Assembly: GCA_945905735.1 (NCBI GenBank)
Contig: CAMDQC010000004.1
Span: 1-64,000 of the forward strand
Direction: 5' to 3'
DNA from: Prosthecobacter debontii
GTDB taxonomy: Bacteria > Verrucomicrobiota > Verrucomicrobiia > Chthoniobacterales > Chthoniobacteraceae
Length of the DNA: 64,000 bases
A program made the translations under genes and the position numbers. Shown here in pieces: positions 4,725-40,121 of this stretch; position 1 is the first letter of the stretch; each line of letters starts with the position of its first letter. Under the pieces are notes generated by a model. The model was not told the DNA's origin and did no database searches. It was given only the letters and a program-made list of their open reading frames with translations.

Positions 4725-5621
4725 ATGATTGAATTCAGCGCCGATACTCTCAAGTTCGCCTATCTCGGCGGTAGCGGGATCGTCGCGGGGTTCCTTACTT
4801 GGAATGGCTGGCGCAAAGGCGTCGCCCGGCAAGGCATGACGCTCCTCGCTATTGCCAGCGCGTATGCCGCTGGGTTCTTCGGGCGCAAGACGGCGGCACC
4901 GCTATTTAGCTTTCTGGGCTACCCGGCGTTCGTCACGGAAATCATCGGCGCAGTTGCCGCCGGGATGCTCACCTACATCGCCGTAAACGCCGTGAGCCGG
5001 ATACTTTTCAGAAAGGACAAGAGCACGCCGGAGCCAAAACAATCCGTCCGTTTTGGCGTCATGGGCGCGCTCCTCGGATTCGTATTCGCGATGTTTCTCT
5101 TCGTCGTCAGCTACTACGCCGTCCGCATGATGGGCACCATCGCCGCTTCGAAAGTGCAGAGCGTCAACGCCGAGCTCGAGGCGTCCAAACATCAGCCGAA
5201 GACAGCCAACTCCCACACGCCCCAAGAAGAACCGCCCGCATTCATCAAAGGACTCGCCAAGCTGAACAGCGCGTTGAACGAAGGCCAGACGGGCGAGTTC
5301 TTTCACAAAGTGGACCGCGTCCCGCCCAACGTCTATGCGATGCTCTTCAAACTAGGCATCATGGTATCGAGCGAAGAATCCCTCGATCGCTTCCTCGGCT
5401 ACCCCGGCGTCGCCGCGCTGGCCCGCCACCCCAAGCTCGCCGTGCTCAAAAGCGACGCCACCGTCTCCGAACTCCTCGCGAGCAAGAGTTACCTCAAACT
5501 GCTGCGTAACGAAAAGATCGTCGCCCTCGCGAACGACCAAGAGTTTGCACAGGAGATCAAAGCGATGGACTTCGAGAAGGCGCTCGACCACGCCATCAAA
5601 GGTGGCGCTGTTGCCCCGTAG
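4725..5621 (+). CDS. CvpA-family membrane protein
   Basis: A 298-residue protein with about four hydrophobic segments in the first 150 residues (around 8-24, 32-55, 65-90 and 105-130). This matches the CvpA (colicin V production) family layout. The remaining half is soluble and mostly helical, without a motif I recognise. CvpA relatives are inner-membrane proteins linked to envelope homeostasis; the biochemical role is unclear. It starts three bases after aroC and is probably in the same transcript. A long palindromic element begins at its stop codon. Confidence 0.7.
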   Translation: MIEFSADTLKFAYLGGSGIVAGFLTWNGWRKGVARQGMTLLAIASAYAAGFFGRKTAAPLFSFLGYPAFVTEIIGAVAAGMLTYIAVNAVSRILFRKDKSTPEPKQSVRFGVMGALLGFVFAMFLFVVSYYAVRMMGTIAASKVQSVNAELEASKHQPKTANSHTPQEEPPAFIKGLAKLNSALNEGQTGEFFHKVDRVPPNVYAMLFKLGIMVSSEESLDRFLGYPGVAALARHPKLAVLKSDATVSELLASKSYLKLLRNEKIVALANDQEFAQEIKAMDFEKALDHAIKGGAVAP

Positions 5622-5812
5622 TGCTCTGTTAGTCGTGAGATGATGGTAACCGCTTGAGCAATCGGGCGGTGACTTGTGACTGGTGGGTGGTGACTGGTCG
5701 CAAGCGTGTTGGCGTGGTTTTTCCGCTTGCGCCCAATCACCACCCACCAGTCACAAATCACCGCCGATAAACACGCTGGATTACCATCACGCGACGCCTG
5801 ACAGAACAGTAG
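5621..5812. repeat. Nested inverted repeat with heptamer-phased hairpin
   Basis: Two nested palindromes fill the gap between the convergent CvpA-like and AraC-type genes. The inner one has 43-base arms at 5664-5706 and 5724-5766 that match at 39 positions, with a 17-base loop. Its left arm is phased in 7-base units (TGACTTG, TGACTGG, TGGGTGG, TGACTGG). The outer arms, about 34 bases at 5621-5654 and 5778-5811, are imperfect and share TTACCATCA and ACAGA-type blocks. The TGACTTG unit also brackets the four-helix-bundle gene near 29 kb. It could act as a bidirectional terminator or be a MITE-like mobile remnant. Confidence 0.8.
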
Positions 5813-27980: not shown

Positions 27981-28074
27981 GGCTGGCGATTAGCAGACGC
28001 GGCGGGTGAAGCGAATAAATGTTTCCCGCATAGACAAAACGCTCACTTTACCCCGCTATACGCGGACAAATTTC

Positions 28075-29064
28075 ATGTCGAACAACACTCAGGAAATCAC
28101 CAACCGGGTCAAAGAACACTCCGCGTGGGTCGAAGGGCTACAACGCGAAGTCGCGAAGGTCGTCGTCGGTCAACGCTACCTCATCGAAGGGCTGCTCGTC
28201 GGCTTGCTCACCAACGGTCACGTCTTGCTAGAAGGTGTGCCGGGGCTGGCAAAGACGCTCACGGTGAAGACGCTCAGCTCGGCGATTCGCACGGGCTTTA
28301 GCCGCATCCAGTTCACGCCCGACCTGCTGCCCGCCGACCTCATCGGCACCCTCATCTACAATCCCCGCGAGGGCGTCTTCACCACGAAGAAGGGGCCGAT
28401 TTTCTCGAACCTTATCCTCGCCGATGAAATCAACCGCGCACCCGCGAAAGTGCAGTCCGCCTTGCTCGAAGCGATGCAAGAGCGGCAAGTCACCCTCGGC
28501 GACACGACGCATAAATTGCCCGACCCTTTCCTCGTCCTCGCGACCCAAAACCCGCTGGAGCAAGAAGGCACCTACCAGCTCCCCGAAGCGCAACTCGACC
28601 GCTTTTTGCTCAAACTCAAAGTCGGCTACCCGACCAAAGTCGAAGAGCGCCAAATCCTCGACCTCATGGGCACGAGCGCGCCAAAGCTCGACGTTTCAGC
28701 CGTCGTCGAGCCCGAACAAATCCTCCGCGCCCGCGAACTGGTGAACAGCATCTACATCGACGACCGGGTGAAGGACTACATCGTGGACATCGTCTTCGCG
28801 ACCCGCGAACCCGCCGCCTACAAACTGCAAATGAGCGGGCTCATCCGCTACGGAGCCAGCCCCCGCGCCACCATCGCCCTCACACTCGCCGCCCGAGCCA
28901 AAGCCTTCCTCAGCGGACGCGGCTACGTCACCCCGCAAGACGTAAAAAGCATCGGCCTAGACGTGCTCCGCCACCGCGTAGCCGTGACCTACGAAGCCGA
29001 AGCCGAAGACCTCACCAGCGAGAAGATCGTGGAGAAGATTTTCGCGACGCTGCCAGTGCCGTAG
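28075..29064 (+). CDS. MoxR-family AAA+ ATPase
   Basis: A 329-residue AAA+ protein. Walker A is EGVPGLAKTLTVK near residue 50, Walker B NLILADEINRAPAKVQSALL near 115, then sensor 1 (VLATQNPLEQEGTYQLPEAQ) and the lid domain. The ATG at 28075 starts MSNNTQEITNRVKEH, typical for the family. MoxR proteins act as chaperone-like remodelers together with von Willebrand A-domain partners, which follow here (DUF58, BatA, BatB). It heads the Bat-type operon. Confidence 0.92.
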   Translation: MSNNTQEITNRVKEHSAWVEGLQREVAKVVVGQRYLIEGLLVGLLTNGHVLLEGVPGLAKTLTVKTLSSAIRTGFSRIQFTPDLLPADLIGTLIYNPREGVFTTKKGPIFSNLILADEINRAPAKVQSALLEAMQERQVTLGDTTHKLPDPFLVLATQNPLEQEGTYQLPEAQLDRFLLKLKVGYPTKVEERQILDLMGTSAPKLDVSAVVEPEQILRARELVNSIYIDDRVKDYIVDIVFATREPAAYKLQMSGLIRYGASPRATIALTLAARAKAFLSGRGYVTPQDVKSIGLDVLRHRVAVTYEAEAEDLTSEKIVEKIFATLPVP

Positions 29065-29071
29065 GGAGTGG

Positions 29072-29099
29072 TGACTTGTGACTTGTAAGATGTGATTTG
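29072..29099 (+). repeat. Heptamer repeats, left flank of four-helix-bundle gene
   Basis: Four 7-base units in phase: TGACTTG, TGACTTG, TAAGATG, TGATTTG. They begin eight bases after the moxR stop and end ten bases before the ATG of the four-helix-bundle gene. They are inverted relative to the units at 29575-29609. Confidence 0.8.
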
Positions 29100-29108
29100 T
29101 TGTAGCCT

Positions 29109-29537
29109 ATGCCGCTTGCCAAAACTGTTCGTGATTTGGAGGTCTATCAGATGGGACTTTCTGCTGCTAAAAGCGTGTTTTTGCTCACGAAGCGATTTCC
29201 TGCCGATGAGCGGTTTTCGCTCACGGATCAAATTCGCAGGAGTAGTCGCGCAGTGACGGCAATGCTTGCCGAGGCTTGGGGACGAAGGCGCTACAAGGCT
29301 TCCTTTGTGAACAAGCTCGATGATGCGATGGGGGAAGCGAACGAGGTGCAAGCATGGCTCGATCATGCACGCGAATGCGGCTACATCACGCAGGCAGAAG
29401 TTGTAGATCTCGACATTCGCTACCAGCACATTGGCGGGAAACTCAGCCGGATGATTGATAGAGCAGACGACTTTTGCAAATACGCGCCATCCACCGACTA
29501 CAGAACCATCACAAAAGACCCACGCGCGGAATCATGA
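29109..29537 (+). CDS. Four-helix bundle protein (S23/IVP-like)
   Basis: A 142-residue, all-helical protein of the four-helix-bundle family named after 23S rRNA intervening-sequence proteins. It opens VRDLEVYQMGLSAAKSVFLL and has the family core LTDQIRRSSRAVTAMLAEAW then NEVQAWLDHARECGYI. The family also contains the Avd accessory protein of diversity-generating retroelements, but I see no reverse transcriptase here. The gene sits alone between moxR and the DUF58 gene, which are normally adjacent. It is bracketed by inverted heptamer repeats, suggesting an inserted unit. Its function is unknown. Confidence 0.8.
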   Translation: MPLAKTVRDLEVYQMGLSAAKSVFLLTKRFPADERFSLTDQIRRSSRAVTAMLAEAWGRRRYKASFVNKLDDAMGEANEVQAWLDHARECGYITQAEVVDLDIRYQHIGGKLSRMIDRADDFCKYAPSTDYRTITKDPRAES

Positions 29538-29574
29538 TCACCGAATTCAGAAAACGGGTCGTGCGGGAGCCCCA

Positions 29575-29609
29575 CAAGTCACCGCTCACAAGTCACAAGT
29601 CACAAGTGC
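29575..29609 (-). repeat. Heptamer repeats, right flank of four-helix-bundle gene
   Basis: Five 7-base units on the plus strand: CAAGTCA, CCGCTCA, CAAGTCA, CAAGTCA, CAAGTGC. These are the reverse complement of the TGACTTG family to the left. The array ends four bases before the ATG of the DUF58 gene. Confidence 0.8.
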
Positions 29610-29613
29610 TCTG

Positions 29614-30501
29614 ATGGAATCCGCCCGCGACATCCTCAAAAAAATCCGCCAGCTAGAGCTAAAGACTCGCGGCATGATCGACGCCGCTTTCTCCGGTCAG
29701 TATCGGTCTGTTTTCAAAGGACGCGGGATGAACTTTGAGGAAGTGCGGGAGTATCAGCCGGGGGATGAGGTGCGGGCGATTGATTGGAATGTCACGGCTC
29801 GGACGGGCGATGCGTATATTAAGAAGTTCACGGAGGAGCGGGAGCTGACGGTGATGCTTGTGGTGGATGTCTCGGCTTCGGGGGAGTTTGGGAGCGTGAA
29901 TCTGAGCAAGCGCGAGCTGGCGGCGGAAGTGGCTTGTTTGTTCGCGTTCAGCGCGATTCGGAACAACGACAAAGTGGGCTGCATTTTGTTTTCGGATCAC
30001 GTCGAGCTGATGGTTCCGCCCGCGAAAGGGCGGGCTCACGCGCTGCGCATTATCCGCGAGATTTTGTTCTTCGAGCCGAAGGGGCGCGGGACGAATGTGG
30101 CGTGTGCGCTGGAGGCGATGAACCGCGTGCTGTCTCGGCGAGCGGTGGTTTTCCTCGTGAGCGATTTTCAGGCGGCGGACTTTTCAAAGCCGATGAATGT
30201 CGCGGCGCGGCGGCACGATATGGTGGCGATCCCGGTGGTGGACCCCGGCGAGCTGGAGCTGCCGGATGTCGGGCGCGTCGTGCTGGAAGACGCGGAGACG
30301 GGCGAGCGGATGGTCATCAATACGAGCGATCGGCGCACGCGGCTGCGGTTTGCGGAGAACATCGGCGGGCCGCTGGAGCAATGGCCCGCATACTTCCGGC
30401 GGTATGGCGTGGAATCCATCACGCTGCGGACGGACCAAGATTACGTCCCCGCGCTGCGGCGGTTTTTTAAGCAGCGGACGAGTCGGCTTTTGCACGGATG
30501 A
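29614..30501 (+). CDS. DUF58 protein (vWA-like partner of MoxR)
   Basis: A 295-residue DUF58 protein. Diagnostic motifs are RGMNFEEVREYQPGDEVRAI and DWNVTARTGDAYIKKF. A von Willebrand A-like fold follows, containing LVVDVSASGEFGS (D-x-S-x-S variant) and VVFLVSDFQ. DUF58 genes nearly always follow moxR; here 549 bases of inserted material separate them. It ends in an ATGA overlap with the next gene. It probably acts as the cytoplasmic partner of the ATPase in envelope maintenance. Confidence 0.9.
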   Translation: MESARDILKKIRQLELKTRGMIDAAFSGQYRSVFKGRGMNFEEVREYQPGDEVRAIDWNVTARTGDAYIKKFTEERELTVMLVVDVSASGEFGSVNLSKRELAAEVACLFAFSAIRNNDKVGCILFSDHVELMVPPAKGRAHALRIIREILFFEPKGRGTNVACALEAMNRVLSRRAVVFLVSDFQAADFSKPMNVAARRHDMVAIPVVDPGELELPDVGRVVLEDAETGERMVINTSDRRTRLRFAENIGGPLEQWPAYFRRYGVESITLRTDQDYVPALRRFFKQRTSRLLHG

Positions 30502-31187
30502 AAAGAACGACGCCAAACTACGAGCCGACAGGCTTTGGACTGCGGCAGCCTGCTGCCGCCTTCCCCCCCCGCAGCCTGCTGCGGAGTCTCGCCAGCAGGC
30601 TGGCGGGGGGAAAGCTACAGCAGGCTGTAGCACTCCAAAGCCTTGCGGCATCCGCGCACGCCGCTATCCAAGGAGCACCGCAAACGCCCGAAGCTCCCGA
30701 TCCGCTCGCCGAGCTGCGCGACAATGCGCGGCTGGTCGAGGTGCCTTGGCCGGAGTGGGTTTGGTGGGCGATTGGGGCGGGCTCGCTGCTCGTTGTGGCG
30801 CTCATCGTTTGGGGCACTGTTCGCTTTATAAAGAGCCGCCCGAAACCTCTGCCGCCGACTCCGCGCGAGTTGGCGATGCGGGCGCTCAATACGCTGCGTG
30901 GGAAGATGCTGGATGCGGAGCCTTATGCGTTCAGCGTGGAGGTGTCGGATGTGCTGCGGACGTTTATCAGCGCGCATTACGCGCTGTTTGCGACGCAGCA
31001 GACTTCGCCGGAGTTTCTGGCGAGCATCGCGTCGTCGCCGCGATTTTCGCCGCAAGACCGTGAGGCGCTGGCTACGTTTTTGGAGCGGTGCGATTTGCTG
31101 AAGTTCGCACGAGTGGAGGCGGGCTCGGGGGAAAATATGGAGCTGCTGCGCGAGGCGGAGGCGTTTGTGCAAGGAGGAGGAAGATGA
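30498..31187 (+). CDS. DUF4381-like membrane protein with in-frame palindromic insertion
   Basis: A 229-residue protein of the Bat operon. One membrane helix lies at about 87-108 (WVWWAIGAGSLLVVALIVWG), followed by a soluble domain with PRELAMRALNTL and FSVEVSDVLRTFISAHYAL, which fits DUF4381. Residues 12-48 are encoded by a palindromic DNA element and look unrelated to the family. They interrupt what was probably a signal peptide, because the downstream remnant LAASAHAAIQ looks like a cleavage region. Whether the protein is still exported is unclear. Start and stop overlap the neighbours (ATGA). Confidence 0.7.
   Translation: MKRTTPNYEPTGFGLRQPAAAFPPRSLLRSLASRLAGGKLQQAVALQSLAASAHAAIQGAPQTPEAPDPLAELRDNARLVEVPWPEWVWWAIGAGSLLVVALIVWGTVRFIKSRPKPLPPTPRELAMRALNTLRGKMLDAEPYAFSVEVSDVLRTFISAHYALFATQQTSPEFLASIASSPRFSPQDREALATFLERCDLLKFARVEAGSGENMELLREAEAFVQGGGR
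30531..30642. repeat. Palindromic element inside the DUF4381 gene
   Basis: A 112-base inverted repeat with 38-base arms (30531-30568 and 30605-30642, 32 matches). It contains four small hairpins sharing the core CAGCCTGCTG or its complement: 30542-30559, 30569-30584, 30590-30605 and 30614-30631. The stem bases next to the core differ between hairpins but stay paired (for example GCGG/CCGC versus GCTA/TAGC). It is read through in frame. Confidence 0.85.
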
Positions 31188-37789: not shown

Positions 37790-38155
37790 GTGAAAACGGT
37801 TTGCTCAATTTTTGCCTTCCTTTCCTTGCTGCTGCTGACGGCGGGCGCGGGGGAGAAGGTGGTCCTGTTTGCGCGCCTCAAAGATGTCACGGTGGTGGAG
37901 CTGACGACGGGCGCGAAGTGGCGCATGGATAAAGGCGACGCCTTCCCGGTGATTGCCTACAAGGAATCGCACACGATGGTCATCCTCCAGCTTGCCGGTG
38001 CGCAGTTTATCGTGCCTGTGGAAAAGACCGACATCGTGCCCGACAAAGAGCTGCCCGAGGCGATGGCGAAATATCGCGAGAACGTGACCAACTACATCAA
38101 CGGCTACTCGGACCGCTGGAAAAAAAACGCTCAAGAAGGAAAACCTGCTCAATGA
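37790..38155 (+). CDS. Small exported protein of unknown function
   Basis: A 121-residue protein from GTG 37790 with a signal peptide (TVCSIFAFLSLLLLTAGAGE). The mature part is predicted beta-rich (KVVLFARLKDVTVVELTTGA, then TMVILQLAGAQFIVPVEKTD) with a helical C-terminus; no family is recognised. A GTG at 37745 is an alternative start overlapping trmL. The ATGA overlap couples it to the glutaredoxin-like gene. Confidence 0.55.
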   Translation: MKTVCSIFAFLSLLLLTAGAGEKVVLFARLKDVTVVELTTGAKWRMDKGDAFPVIAYKESHTMVILQLAGAQFIVPVEKTDIVPDKELPEAMAKYRENVTNYINGYSDRWKKNAQEGKPAQ

Positions 38156-38394
38156 AACTCTACGTCAAAGTCTGGTGCCCGTGGTGCGTCTCTGCCCGCG
38201 AATGGCTCGATTCGCGCGGCTACAAATATCAACTCATCGATGTGGAGGCGAACCGTGCGGACTACGACACGATGATCCAGCTCTCGGGCCAGAAAAAGAC
38301 GCCGACGCTCGTGCTCGCGGACGGCACGGTGCTGCCGGACTTCGGGCCGGATGAGCTGGCCGCGTTTGTCGCGAAGCACAACCTCCGCCCGTGA
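38152..38394 (+). CDS. Glutaredoxin-family protein
   Basis: An 80-residue thioredoxin-fold protein with the redox motif VWCPWCVSA near the N-terminus, the cis-proline segment KKTPTLVLADG and a C-terminal GPDELAAFV. Its size and CPWC site match small glutaredoxins. It would reduce disulfides or glutathionylated proteins in the cytoplasm. It overlaps both neighbours (ATGA upstream, GTGA downstream). Confidence 0.82.
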   Translation: MKLYVKVWCPWCVSAREWLDSRGYKYQLIDVEANRADYDTMIQLSGQKKTPTLVLADGTVLPDFGPDELAAFVAKHNLRP

Positions 38395-39215
38395 CGCCGA
38401 CCGGGAAATTTCTGCTCATCGCGGGCGTCTTCGTCCTCAGCTTGGCGCTGCGGAGCCTCGGCGGGATCATCACGCGCAAGCTCGGCGTGCTCGGCTTTTT
38501 AGCCACGTCGTTTCTCATCGGTTGGTTTGTGAGCGACTGGTGGCCGATGGGTCTGGTGTTCGTGAGTTTTTGGCTCGTGTGGCCGTGGTATGAACTCATC
38601 ACGCGGGTGAAAAAGATCGCGATGCCGGTGGAGAATCCGCTCCGCCACAAGTCGCCGCCGCACCCGGAGTTTTTCCCCGCGCTCGGCGAGTTGAGCGATG
38701 AGATGGAGCAGGAGGGTTTTGAGCATTTGGAAGACCTCGGGCGCGAGTGGGACGAGGCGCAGCAGTTCTTCCGCATCTACCACAAAAAGGGCGAGCGCGT
38801 GCAGGCGGTCATCTGCCTCGTGGAGCAGGAGCAGTTCGCTTTTTACTACTTGCGCATCCTTTCCCGCGCGACGGATGGGACGGTGTGGACGACGTGGAAC
38901 TACCCCTTTTCGCTGAACCTCAAGCTGTCGCCCGACTGGCGCATCAACCGCGAGAGCGGCGACAAATCGTTCCTCGAACTCATCGAGAGCCACCGCCTTT
39001 TTCTCGCCGGCAACGCCGTCCACGAGGAAGACCTCGACGAGACGAACCCCGACCAGCTTCACCAGCAACTACAAGGCGAACAGAGCAGCCAGATCGCGCA
39101 TAACGTCACGGCGGGAATCCTGCGCCGCGACCCGGATGGGGCCATCCGCTACACATGGCGCGGGCTGTGGTTTATCTGGGTTCAGCTCTTGCGAGACTTC
39201 GTCCGACTTTCCTAG
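38391..39215 (+). CDS. Membrane protein of unknown function
   Basis: A 274-residue protein from GTG 38391. Two or three N-terminal membrane segments (about 5-22, 32-50 and 53-68, including FLATSFLIGWFVSDWW) precede a soluble domain of about 190 residues. That domain contains FFRIYHKKGERVQAVICLVE, and the C-terminus is aromatic (WRGLWFIWVQLLRDFVRL). I do not recognise it. The GTGA overlap with the glutaredoxin gene suggests co-translation. Confidence 0.6.
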   Translation: MTPTGKFLLIAGVFVLSLALRSLGGIITRKLGVLGFLATSFLIGWFVSDWWPMGLVFVSFWLVWPWYELITRVKKIAMPVENPLRHKSPPHPEFFPALGELSDEMEQEGFEHLEDLGREWDEAQQFFRIYHKKGERVQAVICLVEQEQFAFYYLRILSRATDGTVWTTWNYPFSLNLKLSPDWRINRESGDKSFLELIESHRLFLAGNAVHEEDLDETNPDQLHQQLQGEQSSQIAHNVTAGILRRDPDGAIRYTWRGLWFIWVQLLRDFVRLS

Positions 39216-39224
39216 ATTCACACT

Positions 39225-40121
39225 ATGAGCATCACCCTACCAGCCGCGCATCCGATAGACCAAATCATGGCCGAGGAACGCGCCGCGTCGTTCACCAAAC
39301 GCAGCATCAAAACCAGCGCCAAACTCGCCGGGCTCAAAATGGTTGTCTCCATGATGGACCTCACCACCCTGGAGGGCAAAGACACCCCCGGCAAAGTCGC
39401 GTATCTCTGCCGCAAAGCCATCCAGCCCGCCGAGCCGCGCCTCGGCGTCCCGAGCTGCGCAGCCGTCTGCGTCTATCCGAATCTCGTGCGTGCGGCGAAG
39501 ACGTTCGTGGGCGACAGCGGGGTGAAAGTCGCCGCCGTAGCCACCGCTTTCCCCAGCGGCGCGATGCCCCTCCGTGTGAAGCTCGCCGACGTGCGCGCTG
39601 CCGTGGGCGAGGGCGCGGATGAAATTGATATGGTCATTGACCGTGGTGCGTTTCACGCCGGGGAATTTGCGCGCGTCGCTGACGAAATCGCTGCGGTGAA
39701 AGAAGCGTGCGGCGTGGCGCATCTGAAGGTCATTTTAGAAACCGGCGAGCTGGTCACGTATGACAACGTCCGCTTTGCCAGCGACCTCGCGATGAACGCC
39801 GGGGCCGACTTCATCAAGACCAGCACCGGTAAAGTGCAGCCCGCCGCCACGCTCCCCGTCACGCTCATCATGCTCGAAGCGATTCGCGATTTCTTTTTCG
39901 CCACCGGACGCCGCATCGGCATGAAGCCCGCAGGCGGCATCCGCACGGCGAAAGAAGCGCTCGCCTACCTAGTCATGCTCTCCGAAACGCTCGGCGACGA
40001 CTGGCTCACCCCCGACCTCTTCCGCTTCGGCGCGAGCACGCTGGGCAACGATGTGGTGATGCAAATCGCCAAGCTCAGCGACGGGAACTACCAAGGCTCG
40101 GATTACTTCTCCCAGCCGTAG
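39225..40121 (+). CDS. deoC: Deoxyribose-phosphate aldolase
   Basis: A 298-residue class I aldolase that splits 2-deoxyribose-5-phosphate into glyceraldehyde-3-phosphate and acetaldehyde. The Schiff-base Lys lies in FIKTSTGKVQPAA. Other conserved blocks are VCVYPNLVRAAKT, EIDMVIDRGAF, LKVILETGEL, and MKPAGGIRTAKEAL. The N-terminal extension of about 45 residues relative to short DeoC enzymes fits the longer subgroup. It starts nine bases after the preceding membrane-protein gene. Confidence 0.95.
   Translation: MSITLPAAHPIDQIMAEERAASFTKRSIKTSAKLAGLKMVVSMMDLTTLEGKDTPGKVAYLCRKAIQPAEPRLGVPSCAAVCVYPNLVRAAKTFVGDSGVKVAAVATAFPSGAMPLRVKLADVRAAVGEGADEIDMVIDRGAFHAGEFARVADEIAAVKEACGVAHLKVILETGELVTYDNVRFASDLAMNAGADFIKTSTGKVQPAATLPVTLIMLEAIRDFFFATGRRIGMKPAGGIRTAKEALAYLVMLSETLGDDWLTPDLFRFGASTLGNDVVMQIAKLSDGNYQGSDYFSQP

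Follow-up and report, generated by a model that had tools for sequence, protein, structure and literature searches.

An S23-family gene enclosed by inverted heptamer arrays at a moxR-DUF58 junction points to a REPIN-like class of selfish hairpin elements

The gene for a MoxR-type AAA ATPase and the gene for a DUF58 protein normally adjoin, as the initial annotation of this locus remarked, and in many of the 30 junctions that we inspected in relatives the two are indeed closely spaced. Within the 64,000-nucleotide stretch of Prosthecobacter debontii DNA analysed here (the window) a small gene lies between them, bracketed by short tandem repeats of seven bases in opposite orientations. What kind of unit is this, and does the protein act upon the repeats that surround it? 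The protein belongs to a family (PF05635, TIGR02436) that is widespread in bacteria and has no known function. The origin of the intervening sequences (IVSs) of 23S rRNA has been an open question for more than 25 years, and the over-representation of heptameric repeats in bacteria is unexplained (PMC4990558, PMC4692102).

Anatomy of the moxR-DUF58 element

The upstream host gene is moxR (28006-29064, + strand; AAA_3, 214.6 bits) and the downstream host gene encodes a DUF58/vWA protein (29614-30501, + strand; DUF58, 276.8 bits), with its start at about 29614 (ATG at 29615). Between them lies an element of 544 bp (29067-29610, + strand), the limits of which were set by blastn comparison with a congener, G002. 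Tandem-repeat detection gave two arms. The left arm (29071-29098, + strand) holds four in-phase heptamers of the GTGACTT type, two perfect and two degenerate (GTGACTT, GTGACTT, GTAAGAT and GTGATTT in order, degenerate past the second unit), and pairs with the right arm (29573-29607, - strand; 5.0 copies), in which five heptamers reading CACAAGT on the + strand and ACTTGTG on the - strand are inverted relative to the left and stop just ahead of the DUF58 start codon. The arms enclose a gene (29109-29537, + strand) for a 142-residue four-helix-bundle protein of the S23, or 23S rRNA intervening-sequence-protein (IVP)-like, type.

A heptamer doublet pattern allowing up to three mismatches matches the window nine times against 0.86 expected, and 0 of 100 shuffles reach nine. 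As in a 23S rRNA IVS, terminal complementary repeats can form a stem round the ORF: the arm duplex has a calculated energy of -45.1 kcal/mol, compared with -25.6 ± 7.6 kcal/mol (minimum -49.6) for window stretches set at the same spacing. The element does not, however, lie in a 23S rRNA gene. Rfam searches returned no match in the window, and likewise none across 12 sources; a PADLOC search for a defence system also gave no match. We considered whether the S23 gene at this site is a phage gene and rejected this, PHROGs giving a weak Avd match alone.

G002 aligns collinearly with the window, the DNA identity being 92-96%, and there moxR and the DUF58 gene are joined directly. Window positions 28010-29066 correspond to 37903-38959 in G002 and 29611-30503 to 38960-39852, so that 29066 and 29611 are adjacent bases there and the two genomes differ by exactly 544 bp with zero bases lost. 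Hence the left heptamers, the four-helix-bundle gene and the five inverted heptamers are present or absent as a block, in keeping with the initial annotation, which had treated them as one unit and had placed its limits (29065-29613) almost exactly. The G002 junction shows no obvious target-site duplication of the kind associated with a classical IS or MITE. Further downstream in the window, a palindromic insertion of the CAGCAGGCTG type (30504-30648) is also missing in G002; it falls close to the beginning of an ORF (30498-31187), which it would extend in frame at the N-terminus.

The 142-residue protein matches PF05635 with 97 bits (E 9e-28; cut-off 33.8) and TIGR02436 with 86 bits (cut-off 24). 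It falls below the thresholds of the Avd families, scoring 25.9 of the required 40 bits with bAvd and 23.1 of 80 with DivGenRetAVD, and it shows no Y1 tyrosine transposase match, the 23S_rRNA_IVP and bAvd models being the only ones matched. The predicted structure has four helices (pLDDT 91.6) and superimposes on 2GSC with Z 19.2 (rmsd 1.3 over 115 residues) and on BT_0352 (2RLD) with Z 17.0 (rmsd 1.5 over 106 residues). Avd chains, alone and in complexes with the reverse transcriptase of diversity-generating retroelements (DGRs), give Z 14.5-14.9, and unrelated bundles 13 or less. A Foldseek/VIA-align search for a nuclease or transposase fold ranked S23 and Avd structures first and then generic helical bundles. 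Near-invariant polar residues (Q, R, S, N, E, R and E) are found on helices 2 and 3 of the S23 family; the copy at the moxR site deviates at two near-invariant positions in the alignment. 2GSC is the structure of XCC0516. This protein is described as a toroidal homopentamer in PMC4990558, which cites Lin 2006.

Heptamer arms as a property of the S23 family

The genome carries four S23 genes and all four are flanked by inverted short tandem repeats with different units, namely TGACTTG, GTTGAGA, GATAGCC and AATCAAC. Two of these genes (L003 and L004) each have a whole palindrome on either side, the two copies being in direct orientation. The initial annotation had proposed a search for inverted 7-base periodicity round other genes of the family, on the footing that its reading would fall if related loci proved to be without heptamers. 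From a protein-only search of the genomes of 84,980 species we obtained 80 S23 loci, which span many phyla and include one from an archaeon. We scored their 250-bp flanks for tandem repetition at 7 bp and counted a lag-7 score of at least 9 as strong. Of the 158 S23 flanks 87 (55%) reached this score, whereas the rate was 3.0% among 1581 control windows from the same loci and 8.7% among 275 intergenic windows. The initial reading thus withstood its own test: arrays of this kind belong to the protein family, and the observation is more general than had first been thought.

Period 7 gave the strongest signal, followed by its multiples 14 and 21, with remaining periods near background. When S23 genes from three sources were pooled, 195 in all, the best period was 7 in 127, 8 in 39, 6 in six and 9 in one, and was unclear in 22; agreement in period between loci climbs with protein identity. 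Some arrays, at L229, L202, L120 and L085, have a period of 8 (for example GGAGCGGA) or 9. The arms have a median of 4.1 units and are mostly 24-34 nt long, and on the gene strand the left arm contains 36% G and 12% C. S23 genes in viral contigs bear the same kind of arms. The arrays might in principle be simple-sequence expansions produced by replication slippage at hairpins and unrelated to S23, and the variable number of units, which reaches about 25 in some very long arrays, would fit such an origin. The enrichment is nevertheless specific to S23 flanks and to period 7 (sometimes 8), and the inverted arms mostly match, so that we regard slippage as a very improbable and already disfavoured explanation.

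The matching of the arms is locus by locus. The mean distance between a left unit and the inverted right unit is 1.26 within a locus and 3.21 between loci (0 of 10,000 permutations), and at the moxR site both arms differ jointly between this genome (G000) and the congener G001. XCC0516-like S23 genes in L359, L363 and other members of the G480 family lie between accB and accC, with arms that abut the stop codon of accB and the ATG of accC; this is a further operon junction occupied by such a gene. At this junction, both arms shift jointly between AAT and ATT units, and own arms pair with -56.5 kcal/mol, as against -47.0 kcal/mol when exchanged (11 of 501 permutations). Furthermore, heptamer distance correlates with S23 protein distance (Mantel r 0.23, 0/2000), and the same heptamer, to within one mismatch, is shared by 65% of S23 pairs that are 60-80% identical and by 1% of pairs below 30%. 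Linkage alone could yield a correlation of this sort and may explain part of it.

Gene-less heptamer palindromes are dispersed in S23-bearing genomes, much as REPIN-RAYT systems have their own dispersed gene-less inverted doublets. Among 38 relatives, arrays of the TGACTTG type are restricted to the genus except for one single match, and they are commonest in this genome. A 464-kb sample of this genome contains 14 further heptamer arrays, six of which differ by at most one mismatch from one of its S23 units. Random S23 units of other phyla would give 0.43, but the excess is not significant when units from the same order serve as the comparison (p 0.31). GTTGAGA arrays occur in six of nine genomes with a GTTGA-type S23 gene and in 16 of 88 others (p 0.004, uncorrected for phylogeny), the backward control being void for this pattern because GTTGAGA reversed is a rotation of itself. 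They occur also in G002, G003 and G005, though no S23 gene like that of L001, the second S23 locus of this genome, was detected there; arrays can thus outlast their S23 gene. At L260 (4411-4467) an AATGACG/TTCGTCA heptamer palindrome matches none of the four S23 heptamers of this genome, to which the locus belongs, and is perhaps a relic of a lost S23 gene. One-sided heptamer arrays with no inverted partner nearby stand immediately before start codons at L250 (11273), L251 (1076) and L255 (11400).

The clearest case of association in trans comes from a gammaproteobacterial family of 117 genomes, probably Xanthomonadaceae judging by their similarity to XCC0516. Fourteen genomes have an S23 protein at least 67% identical to XCC0516, and in all of those with readable flanks (13 of 14) the arms consist of GGGAATC or GGGATTC. 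At least three GGGAATC arrays are present in 12 of these 14 genomes. The corresponding numbers are 8 of 76 for genomes in which no S23 was detected (p 3e-8) and 7 of 27 for those whose S23 genes are of other kinds, with arms built mostly of other heptamers (p 6e-4); both values are uncorrected for phylogeny. The initial annotation had suggested that the protein may act on its own flanking heptamers. Covariation and the genome-level association speak for this, and binding itself is a prediction from sequence.

Presence, absence and dispersal of the elements

At the moxR-DUF58 junction, S23 genes of the same clade are found in G001 (69% identical), in G003 and in G020, a genome of another genus (62%), with the heptamer TGACTGG and its relatives. 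The element is therefore old at this junction, and its absence from G002 may reflect a clean loss. The initial annotation had considered the element to be inserted and had suggested looking for empty orthologous junctions. Such a junction exists, and the clean difference of 544 bp bears out presence and absence of the unit; given the age of the element there, the difference may reflect either insertion or loss, and this copy may be vertically inherited and useful, which tells against the selfish reading.

At L001, with the heptamer GTTGAGA, the orthologous site could be identified by both of its flanks in eight congeners. All eight are without the gene, among them G002, which is 95-96% identical there. 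The site contains half an array in G002 and gene-less palindromes in G004 and G005, and neither gene nor array in G001, G003, G007, G008 and G009.

These comparisons bear on the main rival, in which S23 is a regulator that binds RNA or DNA, and its operators are the heptamer hairpins, both those beside the S23 gene and those in other places. Right arms and several one-sided arrays directly precede ATG codons, related genomes retain S23 genes at a given operon junction (the moxR site and the accB-accC site), and for heptamer repeats that precede start codons in Beggiatoaceae a role in translational regulation has been proposed (PMC4679880). Against this reading, arrays and genes come and go between congeners at 92-96% DNA identity, a single genome can hold several S23 genes with a different heptamer at each, and viral contigs too have S23 genes with such arms; the heptamers also turn over fast. 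Regulation thus seems to us an unlikely account, though it is the strongest of the alternatives.

Other transposons contribute to the distribution. A gene-less palindrome with the TGACTTG-type heptamer (GTGACTTGTGACTGG...CCAGTCACAAATCAC), located at 5669-5763 by pattern search and missing in G002, is cargo of a MITE-like repeat of about 190 bp (5619-5811), which was defined by comparison of loci, has inverted ends of about 30 bp and TA at both borders, and is likewise missing in G002. Further copies are found in L008 and L015, and the ends TAGTGCTCTGT(T/C)AGTCGTGAGATGATGGTAACC are common to the three loci. We had considered the gene-less TGACTTG palindromes as free S23 derivatives, which these three, being MITE cargo, are not. 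Calothrix PCC 7103, with 16 S23 genes, has at least five near-identical copies (L272, L277, L280, L282 and L284) of an element of more than 2 kb that comprises an ISL3-type transposase-like ORF and a passenger S23 gene with 8-mer repeats CAAATCTT. These copies were likewise rejected as instances of S23 transposition, since they are located within the larger ISL3-like element. Part of the dispersal is hence owed to other transposons.

It could be argued from the MITE and the Calothrix element that S23 is a passenger of other mobile elements or of recombination and does not act on heptamers, the arrays protecting the host transcript as hairpin insulators or as sites for RNase III; RNase III is known to cut IVS stems (PMC4990558). 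Such a passenger would need neither a 7-nt period nor heptamers that track protein type, nor would the genomes that encode a given protein have to contain gene-less arrays of its heptamer. We consider this explanation improbable, more so than regulation.

A probable heptamer-armed selfish element among known systems

Collectively, the evidence suggests that the S23 family is the core of a hitherto unrecognised class of selfish hairpin elements that resemble REPINs. We put the probability at about 60% that the locus is an S23/IVS-type hairpin-ended selfish element whose S23 protein acts on arrays both in cis and in trans, in the manner of RAYTs with REPINs. Counting against a selfish element, neither a transposition event nor an intermediate was seen among the genomes compared. 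According to this model the inverted arrays, of some four to five heptamers each, would pair into a stem of about 30 bp closing on the S23 gene. The protein, which should form a pentameric ring as XCC0516 does, would most likely recognise its own array, as hairpin or single strand and as DNA or RNA, with about one 7-nt unit per subunit. It may then aid the copying or insertion of the hairpin unit elsewhere in cis, the chemistry of copying or transfer presumably being supplied by a host or partner enzyme, and in trans it may aid gene-less palindromes with the same heptamer. In transcripts the stem would probably be excised by RNase III, as in rRNA IVSs, and insertion between the genes of an operon would thus do little harm. 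What we observed directly is the anatomy and how general it is, the pairing and covariation of the arms, presence and absence of the unit, and the link between heptamer and protein type within and between genomes; the steps from binding onwards are predictions of the model.

A wider proposal, which we advance tentatively and at somewhat less than even odds, is that S23 proteins define a large and widely distributed class of minimal mobile elements that lack any recognised transposase, in which a heptamer-binding ring mobilises heptamer-armed hairpins in cis and in trans, with heptamers specific to lineages. Many dispersed heptamer repeats of bacteria (such as GGGAATC in Xanthomonas) and the 23S rRNA IVSs would then be its products. 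The link between S23 and heptamers joins three puzzles, namely the function of S23, the origin of IVSs and the heptamer repeats, and because each S23 gene adjoins its own predicted binding site, one binding assay can test all three.

The closest known relative is the 23S rRNA IVS. In Coxiella burnetii tandem heptamers (GACAGAT) lie ahead of the S23p ORF, a 28-bp stem closes the sequence, and the IVS has been characterised as a selfish element (PMC4990558). Both systems have an S23 ORF enclosed by a terminal stem with tandem heptamers. The site is rRNA there and between two protein genes here, where there are in addition many elements per genome, different heptamers and gene-less derivatives. 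The Coxiella heptamers were not generalised to the S23 family in PMC4990558, and in the open-access literature we found no paper that ties S23 genes to heptamer arrays beyond this IVS. Avd of the DGRs has the same fold as the S23 model and likely shares common ancestry with it, although the S23 protein scores under the Avd family cut-offs. Dispersed tandem heptamers are also a feature of the GGGAATC repeats of Xanthomonas, which the relevant part of PMC4692102 describes as quadruplex-forming, often in convergent pairs and with no known function, and of the TAACTGA repeats of Beggiatoaceae and Cyanobacteria; the relevant parts of these accounts (PMC4692102, PMC4679880) make no link to S23, whereas here the GGGAATC type is linked to XCC0516-like S23 genes. 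REPIN-RAYT systems (PMC3116915) differ in that the RAYT is a tyrosine (Y1) transposase, while S23 matches no transposase family and has no known catalytic activity, and in that their arms are REPs rather than tandem heptamers. The likeness lies in the organisation: an autonomous gene accompanied by scattered extragenic, gene-less inverted doublets that form hairpins, with one protein type for each repeat type, and one longer-lived gene for many gene-less doublets.
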